From: a virus
DNA: 37,636 nt
Strand: one strand, 5' to 3'
Virus record (IMG/VR): IMGVR_UViG_3300037071_005240
Span: 1 to 37,636 of that record
Notes under the pieces: model-generated
Database searches by the model: none
The model's input: the letters and a program-made list of their open reading frames with translations, nothing else
Told to the model about the DNA's origin: nothing
Made by a program: the position numbers and the translations under genes
Part shown: positions 10,127 through 14,591 of the stretch, in pieces
How the letters are laid out: every line of letters starts with the position of its first letter
Numbering within the stretch: the first letter of the stretch is position 1

Positions 10127-11656
10127 ATGAACAAGCAACATAAATTTTACGATGATGAAATTACACCCGCATTCGGTCAATTGTCCACAACAAACGAATG
10201 GATATATGAAATGCAAGCCGATGCAGCCGTCAAATCATTTGCAGCCGATCAAGCCGCGATTGTCTCCGATGATGCAGCCGTCCCGTTTACGTTGACGGCT
10301 GCAAACCAAATCGGCTGCACCGTCAAAGTTGTCAATGATACGGGAAAATACGAAATCATTTCGTCATCGTCTCCCGTCTTGATCCCAAATGGTAAGACTT
10401 ACAATTCAACGATTATTGCAAAACGCGATTTGGGATCAATATGGTCAATCGTTTGTCATCTTAGTCAAGGTAATACGGGATCGGTCAAAATTGACGAAAT
10501 CAAACCGTTTGCAGCCGTCCCAACAATCGATACTCCAACTATCGCGGCTGCACCCGCATCGTCTCCCGATGCACCCGTTTTGACCGTCTCCGATGACGCT
10601 ATATCGGCTGCACCGTCTCCCGATGACGATGACGATGACGATGACGATGATCAAATCAATCCCGATGATACACCCGCATTCGATCCCAACAATGCACCCG
10701 TCATCATCGAATTGCCCAAACGCTATATCCCGTCTCCCATTGTCGGGATTGCAAGATGGATCAATCCGGATGTAGTTTGGGACGTTGACGATACGGGATA
10801 CTACATTTCGCCAAACGCCAAACGTCAAGTTTTTGCAGCCGTCAATCTACTGATTTCCGATCCCTATACAGCCGTGAAAATTCTCATGACGGGAGAATCC
10901 GGATATGGCAAGACAACTATTGCCAAGCAAATCGCAGACAAATTAGGTCTTGACTATTTTCGGATGAATTGCGCAGCCGTCCGCGATCCTAATGACTGGT
11001 TTTTTGATACTGAAGTAAAGACGGTCATCGTCAACGGTCAAGCCGTACCCGAAACAATTTTCACCATTTCAGAATTTTCAGAACGAATTGCACGCGGAAA
11101 TTGTGTGATCGTTTTGGATGAATTTAACCGTCTCGAATCCAACATGCACAATACCTTGTTCCCATTGTTGGATGATGACGGCTGCACCCGATTGCATCAT
11201 ATCGATTTCCGCGTGGGACCAAATGTACTTTTCATCGGTACGGTCAATCTTGGCGCGAAATTTGCGGGTACTTTTTTGTTGGATGATGCTTTGACAAATC
11301 GGTTTGATATGATTTTAGAAGTTAAACCGATCCCACCTGGAGATGAAATCAAAGTACTTACAACGCGGACGGGTATTGATGACGGTGCAGCCGATCAAAT
11401 CGTATCGTTGGCTGCATTGTTACGGGAGAATGATTTCGTTTGTAGCACGCGCGATACTCTGAAAATTTCCAAATTAGTCGGCGCGGGATTATCTGTGAGG
11501 GATGCTTTTGAATTCGTTGTCATTCTGCGGATACCCGATGACGAAAACAATGCACCCGTTCGAAAATCGGTCGTTGAAATCACAAATCGACATTTGGGTG
11601 AGCGCGACGCAATTTTCGCGGCTGCGCCATCACATCCTATTCTTTCATCCTACTAA
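10127..11656 (+). CDS. MoxR/CobS-type AAA+ ATPase with N-terminal extension
   Basis: A 509-residue protein. The C-terminal AAA+ module has Walker A GESGYGKT (256-263), Walker B VIVLDE (327-332), sensor GTVN (371-374) and an arginine finger in LTNRFD (R392), as in MoxR/CobS AAA_5 ATPases. Residues 1-190 form an extension rich in Ala-Ala-Val/Asp, with ten Asp in a row at 166-175. ATG 10127 was chosen because CAGAG-ATG also precedes other genes in the island; the frame is open from a GTG at 10064. The next gene encodes a VWA protein, the usual MoxR partner. The pair would remodel or insert metal into an unknown client using ATP. Confidence 0.88.
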   Translation: MNKQHKFYDDEITPAFGQLSTTNEWIYEMQADAAVKSFAADQAAIVSDDAAVPFTLTAANQIGCTVKVVNDTGKYEIISSSSPVLIPNGKTYNSTIIAKRDLGSIWSIVCHLSQGNTGSVKIDEIKPFAAVPTIDTPTIAAAPASSPDAPVLTVSDDAISAAPSPDDDDDDDDDDQINPDDTPAFDPNNAPVIIELPKRYIPSPIVGIARWINPDVVWDVDDTGYYISPNAKRQVFAAVNLLISDPYTAVKILMTGESGYGKTTIAKQIADKLGLDYFRMNCAAVRDPNDWFFDTEVKTVIVNGQAVPETIFTISEFSERIARGNCVIVLDEFNRLESNMHNTLFPLLDDDGCTRLHHIDFRVGPNVLFIGTVNLGAKFAGTFLLDDALTNRFDMILEVKPIPPGDEIKVLTTRTGIDDGAADQIVSLAALLRENDFVCSTRDTLKISKLVGAGLSVRDAFEFVVILRIPDDENNAPVRKSVVEITNRHLGERDAIFAAAPSHPILSSY

Positions 11657-11735
11657 CAAACGGCTGCATCGGGATCGGCTGTATCGGGAGACAACGGCCG
11701 GTGCAGCCGACAATACAGAATAAGGAAATCACAGA

Positions 11736-13886
11736 ATGAAATCTCTCTATCAAAGTACATCGAATGTTTATACCTGGTACGGTCAATCAATAACCGTACC
11801 CTCAATTGAGAATCCGCGGTTCATCCCGTTTGCATCATCTTGCATGGGGATCGCCATCTCACTACTCAACAAAACACTACTGCGAAATATCCGCGTTGGA
11901 TTATCTAAGCAAATCGATACAGCCTACGCGGATCCCGATAGAGATTTGATTGTCATCTCTGAAAAGTTTCTCAGAGGATACTTTGACGGGATCGGGTGCA
12001 GCCAACGATTAAACGGGTATCAAACCACGGGTGCAATTTTAGGCATCATAGTGCATGAAATAGGACATTTCGCATACAGTCCTAAAGATTTGATCGGGTA
12101 TGTTGAGTACATCAAATCACGTACAGCCAAACGGTTTGATCCTGAGTTAGCGCGTTCCGTCTCAAATATAGTTGAAGATATCTATATTGAGAGTGAAATT
12201 TCAACGGCTGCACCGTCTCTATCTTGGTCGTTGGATGAAATCAATAAGTTGATGCTAACCGATGAAAAGTACAAATTTCTTGGTCAAACAATGGGATCGT
12301 TTGCATCGGGAGACGATCCCCATATAGCACGAAATTTGATGCTTTTCGCTAAAGTAACATCTACTGCACCGCGCGGTACGTCACCCTACGCGAAAAAACT
12401 TTTCAAACTAGCGCGTTCGGTCATCGGCAAAACAGATTTGAAAGATCGTTTTGTTTTGGCTGCAAAGATATACGAATTGATTGCAGCCGAAATCAAGCCG
12501 ATCAAACCGTCTCCCGACAAACCGAATAAAGACGATGACCAAGATCAAGACGATGCAGCCGATCAAGATGATGATACGGGTATGTCAACGGGAGATGATG
12601 ACTCATCGGCTGCACAAAAAGACGGTCAAGACAATGACCAAATCGATGATCAAGACAATGACGATGATACAGCCGATGATCAAGACGATGATCAAGACAA
12701 TGATCAAGACGATGACGGTCAATCGGGAGACAATCAAGACGATGATGCAGCCGATCAAACCGATGACGATGACCGTCAATCGGGATCGGGTGCAGCCAAC
12801 GACGATGACCAAGACGATCAAGACGGTTTGACCGATGACGATCAAGACGATCAAACGGGATCGGGAGACGGTCAAGACGGTCAAGACGGTCAAGACGGTC
12901 AATATAATGACGCGTCGGGATCGGGATCGGGATCGGGAGACGATCCCGAATATACAGCCAACGATACAATCGATATTCCACAAATCGATACGATGCGCGA
13001 CCGAAACGCGGCTGCACCCGATTATAGCGATTTGCCAAGTGACGGAAATTTCCGCGTTGGACTTGACGGAAATACGGTTAGCGAAATCGTTGTCGATGCA
13101 GCCAACGTCGGGATCGAAATGGATCGCAGATATACTAAGTTATCAGAGATGGCGCGACAACGTACAAACGCAAATGTCGGATATGGAGAGCAAAAAAATA
13201 CGGGTAGAAATTTGCGTCAAGTACATCGGATTATGACCGATAGAAAAGTTTTTTCTACCCGTATTTTACAGCCGACAATCAAGCCTATGGAGGTTATCTT
13301 ATTGTTGGATTGTAGCATTTCGATGAATTCGATTGCATCGGGATCGTATGACCGGAAAATAGTTGGCGCGTCATCGGCTGTATTAGGTGCAACGACCGGA
13401 TTAATAAACGGAAAAGCGCAAGTAACGGTTTACGGTCATACAGCCGATCCCGATCACAGTGCAAATCAAGTGATTCTCTATCCTCTCATGCAATCGGGAG
13501 AATCACTCTCTATCTTGGCAAGACGGCTGCAAACGCTGACTATCGGTAAGTATGCGGGTGATACCCGCTATCTATGGTACTCGCGAGACGGGTACGCTAT
13601 CCATGAAATGAGCAAAAAATTTGTCTCCAAAGAAAAGAGAAAAGTTTTGATCGTGATTTCGGATGGTGAGCCATCTTGCGGATCGGGTATGTATCGACAA
13701 TCGCGTGCAATTGAGCATACCCGCCGAATGGTCAATCGGGTACGGTCATCGGGTATTGATGTGTTCTCAATTTCGATTGACCGTACCGCATTCGATCCCA
13801 ACAATGTAATCTATGGTCGCGATTTCAATACTTGCAGCCTTGACGCAAACGCAATCGATACTCTCATAAGACAACTTTATAAGTAA
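11736..13886 (+). CDS. HEIGH-metallopeptidase-like / acidic linker / VWA protein
   Basis: A 716-residue protein in three parts. Residues 1-260 contain HEIGH (107-111) and a downstream NIVEDIYIE (144-152), the layout of zincin-like domains in VWA proteins of MoxR systems; whether it is catalytic is unknown. Residues about 264-416 are a low-complexity Asp/Gln/Gly/Ser linker. Residues about 500-716 are a VWA domain with a complete MIDAS: DCSIS (525-529), a Thr at T610 and SDGEPS (D643). CobT-like chelatase subunits also pair VWA and acidic regions, but the HEIGH domain and lack of a CobN partner argue against a simple cobaltochelatase. ATG 11736 follows AAGGAAATCACAGA. Confidence 0.85.
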   Translation: MKSLYQSTSNVYTWYGQSITVPSIENPRFIPFASSCMGIAISLLNKTLLRNIRVGLSKQIDTAYADPDRDLIVISEKFLRGYFDGIGCSQRLNGYQTTGAILGIIVHEIGHFAYSPKDLIGYVEYIKSRTAKRFDPELARSVSNIVEDIYIESEISTAAPSLSWSLDEINKLMLTDEKYKFLGQTMGSFASGDDPHIARNLMLFAKVTSTAPRGTSPYAKKLFKLARSVIGKTDLKDRFVLAAKIYELIAAEIKPIKPSPDKPNKDDDQDQDDAADQDDDTGMSTGDDDSSAAQKDGQDNDQIDDQDNDDDTADDQDDDQDNDQDDDGQSGDNQDDDAADQTDDDDRQSGSGAANDDDQDDQDGLTDDDQDDQTGSGDGQDGQDGQDGQYNDASGSGSGSGDDPEYTANDTIDIPQIDTMRDRNAAAPDYSDLPSDGNFRVGLDGNTVSEIVVDAANVGIEMDRRYTKLSEMARQRTNANVGYGEQKNTGRNLRQVHRIMTDRKVFSTRILQPTIKPMEVILLLDCSISMNSIASGSYDRKIVGASSAVLGATTGLINGKAQVTVYGHTADPDHSANQVILYPLMQSGESLSILARRLQTLTIGKYAGDTRYLWYSRDGYAIHEMSKKFVSKEKRKVLIVISDGEPSCGSGMYRQSRAIEHTRRMVNRVRSSGIDVFSISIDRTAFDPNNVIYGRDFNTCSLDANAIDTLIRQLYK

Positions 13887-14349: not shown

Positions 14350-14351
14350 AG

Positions 14352-14591
14352 ATGAAAATCTACCAAGAAATTTTAGAATCTGCACAACGAACGGGTATGA
14401 TCGCGCACCGTCAATTTCTTATTATCAAAGTAAGAAATAGCGTAGGACGTGAGAGACAAACTTACCAAGAATGTATTGAAATGGTAGATAGTGTGCTATT
14501 TCAACTTTTCAGTTTGGCGTATCAGAACGCGGACAAAACAAAGCACAATGAAGATTTGCTATCATTCGTGATTGAGATTAATAAGACATAA
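14352..14591 (+). CDS. hypothetical protein, 79 aa (island)
   Basis: A mostly helical protein (MKIYQEILESAQRTG...; MVDSVLFQLFSLAYQNADK). It starts 2 bases after the preceding stop and uses the third CATAACGGGAGA leader. Its DNA has fewer island words than the ATPase and VWA genes. No family is recognised. A terminator hairpin follows 33 bases later. Confidence 0.6.
   Translation: MKIYQEILESAQRTGMIAHRQFLIIKVRNSVGRERQTYQECIEMVDSVLFQLFSLAYQNADKTKHNEDLLSFVIEINKT

Follow-up and report, generated by a model that had tools for sequence, protein, structure and literature searches.

In a stretch of viral DNA of 37,636 nucleotides (IMG/VR record IMGVR_UViG_3300037071_005240, positions 1 to 37,636; here called the window), two adjoining genes encode a MoxR-clade AAA+ ATPase and a protein in which a HEIGH zinc-type domain is joined to a VWA domain. 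Judged by motifs and profiles, the two are a divergent member of the CobS/CobT–NorQ/NorD-like pair known from tailed viruses. We propose, with a likelihood that we put slightly below even, that the pair serves as an ATP-driven remodeller of the NorQ–NorD or CobS–CobT type, having its client in the nucleoprotein with which the element replicates or recombines its DNA. With regard to the class of mechanism, a remodeller of the mechanical type exemplified by NorQD, we are fairly confident; a client in DNA recombination or replication, which we infer from gene context, is favoured with moderate confidence over virion assembly or cobalt chelation.

The AAA+ ATPase and its HEIGH-VWA partner

The AAA+ gene occupies positions 10,127–11,656 of the plus strand and encodes 509 residues from an ATG at 10,127, with an alternative in-frame GTG at 10,064 and the stop at 11,656. 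The protein comprises an N-terminal region, an acidic, Asp-rich stretch and an AAA+ module at about residues 232–475, in which Walker A (G256..K262-T263), Walker B (around E332), sensor-1 (N374) and the arginine finger (R392) were invariant in an alignment of eight homologues. Scores for Pfam AAA_5 (44 bits) and CbbQ_C (24.9 bits, cut-off 20.6) both exceeded the cut-offs, and a profile of the protein matched Midasin, CobS (5e-38), NorQ and CbbQ in the PDB, with no CobS model found among the 25 best NCBIfam matches. The pair gave two PHROG matches, phrog_1576 (2e-9) and phrog_249 (4e-18), the latter concerning the AAA+ protein and carrying the label 'porphyrin biosynthesis'.

The second gene (11,736–13,886, plus strand) encodes 716 residues. 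An N-terminal domain with HExxH at 107–111 and NxxED at 144–148 has, at the motif level, what defines a gluzincin, namely HExxH with a downstream acidic third ligand. It is followed by a linker rich in Asp and Gln (about residues 251–430) and by pre-VWA and VWA regions (about 431–716) with the metal-ion-dependent adhesion site (MIDAS) D525/S527/S529/D643. An alignment of eight homologues, drawn from phages, plasmids and one genomic island, showed 14 invariant residues, including H107, E108, H111, N144, E147, D148, D525, S527, S529 and D643. Its profile matched CobT (5e-23) and NorD (2e-12) in the PDB, and a low-confidence AlphaFold2 model of the VWA domain, built from two sequences, had as its best solved match the VWA domain of NorD bound to NorQ (9qh8_G, E 1e-8). 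The window protein scored 17.9 bits with Pfam CobT_C, under the cut-off of 21 that its homologue at locus L002 exceeded (30.7 bits), and tblastn of the phage collection with the protein gave no match. An earlier note, made from the sequence alone, had described a complete AAA+ ATPase of the MoxR clade followed by a HEIGH-VWA protein of this length with a long Asp/Gln linker and a full MIDAS; the coordinates and motifs were correct, and the Pfam and profile results agree with that description.

Two related phage contigs, G001 (35.5 kb) and G002 (21 kb), were found in scans of viral contigs using polymerase and methyltransferase fragments. The same scans with the AAA+, VWA or primase protein singly gave no matches, the eight-way VWA alignment was too diverged for use as a query, and two-row alignments of the VWA protein and of a phrog_2319-like protein each returned G001 alone. 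Synteny covers window positions 22–37 kb for G001 and 29–37 kb for G002. The G001 contig begins within the linker of its VWA gene, the remainder of the encoded protein being 50% identical to that of the window, and the two genes were identical at 0.59, 0.71 and 0.34 of first, second and third codon positions, respectively, a pattern that shows purifying selection on the VWA protein. G002 gave no VWA match, so that the comparison of the locus relies on G001.

Genetic neighbourhood, proposed client and alternatives

We infer a complex in which the AAA+ protein would form a ring, with the VWA domain docking into its pore and holding the client through the MIDAS metal. ATP-driven rotation would then tug at the long acidic linker joining the VWA domain to the N-terminal domain, and the client, once opened, would most likely be clipped, or have a metal inserted or removed, because the N-terminal domain has a gluzincin-like zinc site. 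The client itself would most likely be a component of the replication or recombination nucleoprotein of the element, since homologues in phages and conjugative plasmids recur beside genes for SSB, annealing or strand-exchange recombinases, exonucleases and polymerases.

Plasmid records with homologues of the HExxH-VWA layout numbered 1431 and included IncC; 986 were typed as conjugative. IncC plasmids have a single cluster of AAA+, ssb, bet, lambda-exonuclease, DUF3150 and VWA genes, and pCTEL-2 carries ssb followed by two annotated DNA recombinase genes, then AAA+, DUF3150 and VWA. A Thermovibrio plasmid has ssb, Rad52, AAA+ and VWA, and an E. coli plasmid of 111 kb has VWA, AAA+, DnaE and a 5'-3' exonuclease. 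Among phages, the gut-phage locus L004 reads primase, PolA, UvsX-like recombinase, AAA+, HEIGH-VWA and Cas4-like exonuclease, and in Bacteroides phage BS162P1 the homologous pair is near a DNA polymerase. An Alkaliphilus homologue has topoisomerase IA in its neighbourhood, and genes for SSB-like, Sak4-like and exonuclease proteins also occur in the phage of the window.

Several points weigh against a client of this kind. The pair of the window is not adjacent to the Sak4, SSB and exonuclease genes but lies about 20 kb from them; the loci surveyed, about nine, were chosen by hand with no background rate for comparison, and genes of DNA metabolism are generally abundant in the early regions of phages and plasmids. 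A search of the window and the sister contigs for DUF3150, an extra gene of the IncC/Pseudomonas version, found none, a weak negative as the family was detected in no control genome either. With regard to the zinc site, the AlphaFold2 model of the HEIGH domain had a predicted local distance difference test (pLDDT) value of 50, too poor for identification of its fold.

The plasmid homologues also bear upon the idea that the pair is a chaperone-protease of virion assembly, folding and clipping structural proteins. This was proposed for jumbo phages having the same architecture (PMC7824862), by analogy to a MoxR-vWA pair required for tail assembly of an archaeal virus; however, conjugative plasmids make no virions, and the pair at L004 sits amid replication and recombination genes rather than structural ones, and we consider such a role unlikely. 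Less likely still, in our judgement, is a conflict machine for counter-defence or superinfection exclusion that employs accessory effectors. MoxR-vWA ternary systems with VMAP, iSTAND, FtsH or beta-propeller components were proposed as conflict systems (PMC7159879), and the lineage-specific small genes and small membrane protein near the pair (see below) would suit variable effectors; however, none of those four partner domains was found by Pfam or PADLOC in the five proteins of the operon, and PADLOC matches were confined to the AAA+ part (best DolB, 6e-10), with none for the VWA and small proteins. Finally, cobalt chelation, by which viral CobST would hijack the CobN of the host and raise the supply of cobalamin, as proposed for viral cobST (PMC8651126), finds favour in the strong profile matches to CobS and CobT structures, but is improbable given an equal degree of relationship to NorQ/NorD and Midasin, a CobT_C score below cut-off, the absence of CobS and CobT models from the 25 best NCBIfam matches of the pair, and no CobN (PF02514) in the window, G001 or G002 by a search that detected its positive controls, although these contigs may each be incomplete and the host might supply CobN. 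The earlier note had likewise seen no CobN, and the tight CobS/CobT grouping beside a CobN gene that it had named as an adverse outcome did not appear.

Previous readings of viral 'CobST' have placed these genes in B12-related metabolism or among the chaperones of virion assembly. To judge from the homologues on plasmids and the recombination genes found near the pair, it may be that neither name fits much of the family, and we would offer the alternative of an ATP-driven remodeller or peptidase working on the DNA metabolism of mobile elements.

Small genes, word island and neighbouring genes

Downstream of the pair, and on the same strand, follow three small open reading frames (ORFs): ORF 1 (13,964–14,131, 55 residues), with no more than a marginal family match and no counterpart found in G001; ORF 2 (14,182–14,349, 55 residues), a probable membrane protein with a maximum of 2.23 over 19 residues on the Kyte-Doolittle scale; and ORF 3 (14,352–14,591, 79 residues), for which no homologue was found among phage records or in G001. 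A hairpin of 12 bp with a T-rich tail (14,625–14,652, plus strand), resembling an intrinsic terminator, closes the operon. Hairpin-like matches across the region were no more frequent than in shuffled sequences, but this one is strong and at the expected place, and an analogous hairpin lies 3' of the VWA gene in G001. Rfam families gave no match to the window.

Three short genes, one likely encoding a membrane protein, and a single terminator had thus been recognized properly in the earlier note, but the proposed five-gene unit did not hold in the sister phage. Between the VWA stop and the terminator of G001 nothing resembling the three small proteins was detected, and the interval has a single ORF for a 32-residue membrane protein that looks unrelated to ORF 2. 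Judged from this one relative, the trio is lineage-specific, and a small membrane protein beside the VWA gene may be conserved in kind only. The three genes would accordingly be passengers or accessory factors outside the core machine, and nothing that we saw specifically indicates the membrane target suggested earlier.

The operon is enclosed by an island of about 6 kb (9200–15,150) in which short words are repeated on both strands, in coding as well as non-coding DNA. Its vocabulary includes a TGCAGCC core, CGATCCCG, CGTCTCCCG and CGATGACC. TGCAGCC/GGCTGCA occurs 49 times in the island (24 and 25 by strand) compared to twice in the other 31.7 kb, and locally repeated 9-mers exceeded those of a third-order Markov sequence with z of about 7–13, an excess that declines to background over the next few kb in both directions. 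The density of the core is 9–13 per kb in non-coding DNA, the N-terminal region of the AAA+ protein and the VWA linker, 3.5–6 per kb in the AAA+, HEIGH and VWA domains and zero in residues 1–85 of the VWA protein; within coding sequence its frame is mostly that giving Ala-Ala. The matching leaders of the small genes reported in the earlier note do exist, but carry less weight than at first sight, as CGGGAGAC is a general word of the island with 15 copies over both its strands.

At the same locus in G001 (1–1950; L078 1–1950) z was also above 12, yet the vocabularies were disjoint: words of the window numbered 129.6 per kb in its own island and 0.0 in the G001 stretch, and those of G001 numbered 73.3 per kb in their own stretch and 0.7 in the island of the window. 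Fourfold sites of the VWA gene were 23% identical between the two phages, below the other genes compared (0.28–0.65), with small samples. It is possible that the two phages acquired these stretches from two unsequenced donors. We also regard as possible, though doubtful, that an active, lineage-specific process rewrites both strands of the locus in short repeated words, coding linkers included, and spares catalytic domains, such that related phages, here two genomes compared, come to differ wholly in vocabulary. The cause might be a mutational or recombinational mechanism targeted to the locus, or else selection in favour of dispersed recognition sites; to our knowledge neither would have a precedent in phages. 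If true, disjoint word sets in orthologous operons of two phages would point to an unrecognized process, or selection, that diversifies sequence.

A sequenced donor or host using these words genome-wide was not supported by scans with word-pair patterns, as 12 matches in viral contigs and 51 in 84,980 species genomes (about 58 expected, an estimate assuming uniform bases) included none carrying the vocabulary. We also rejected the idea that word islands generally accompany AAA-VWA pairs, as none was present at the homologous genes tested; the most seen there were unrelated repeats in the vicinity of L003 and, in L019, a weaker signal. Just outside the island, both phages have short repeats of tandem type built on TTGATCCC / GATTCCTTGATC (window about 15,447–15,600; L078 about 2050–2350), which we presume to resemble the short tandemly repeated sequences of some cyanobacteria.

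Convergent to the operon lies the phrog_2319-like gene (15,673–16,353, minus strand; 226 residues, 71% identical in the sister phage). Its product may be functionally linked to the pair; in jumbo-phage locus L005 a relative (2401–3153) lies upstream of the pair. Elsewhere in the window, 22,265–23,179 encodes an amidoligase-like protein (phrog_2443, 2e-34), also present in G001, and 27,267–29,771 a protein of 834 residues that combines a TOTE-conflict-type archaeo-eukaryotic primase domain with a P-loop region; tblastn of 50,697 phage records gave no match to it. ORFs 30,108–30,857 and 29,801–30,724 overlap in different frames and may be one frameshifted gene; the former looks like a cytosine methyltransferase and is 81% identical in G001. 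Loci L085–L087 have a related methyltransferase only, with no AAA or VWA match. Past the right end of the window, G001 26,693–28,024 (L079) encodes a protein with a vWA-like DVSGSM motif and, by eye, a TROVE/Ro60-type look.

Comparison with known systems

The operon had been suggested to be an undescribed machine, but pairs of this kind are already published. In jumbo phages a MoxR chaperone and a metallopeptidase-vWA co-chaperone are encoded by neighbouring genes (PMC7824862), and the pair of the window fits this definition by sequence, being a MoxR AAA+ gene adjoining that of a vWA protein that bears a metallopeptidase motif in its N-terminal part, with an identical domain order and likewise in a tailed phage. 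It is, however, strongly diverged, with a very long Asp/Gln linker and an extra N-terminal region in the AAA+ protein, from a phage without established jumbo status, and the virion role proposed there finds no support from the plasmid homologues. The cobST cluster of archaeal and bacterial tailed viruses (PMC8651126) shares the two-gene AAA+/VWA arrangement and family phrog_249; its cobaltochelatase role is a proposal, unsupported in the window.

The AAA–DUF3150–VWA module of IncC plasmids and genomic islands has, like the window, HExxH, NxxED and a MIDAS VWA domain, with the AAA+ gene in the cluster, but differs by the extra DUF3150 gene, by ssb-bet-exo in between and by a VWA protein of 22% identity in the eight-way alignment. 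NorQ–NorD (PMC13036017, PMC9976466) has cNOR as its client and a NorD N-domain not described as an HExxH peptidase. It nevertheless consists, as does the window pair, of a MoxR-clade AAA+ protein and a partner having an N-domain, a long flexible linker and a MIDAS VWA domain, and cryo-electron microscopy gave a mechanism with a VWA finger in the pore (PMC13036017). With CbbQ_C over cut-off, NorD as the best fold match of the modelled VWA domain and a linker at 251–430, the predicted layout of the window pair is that of the NorQ–NorD type.

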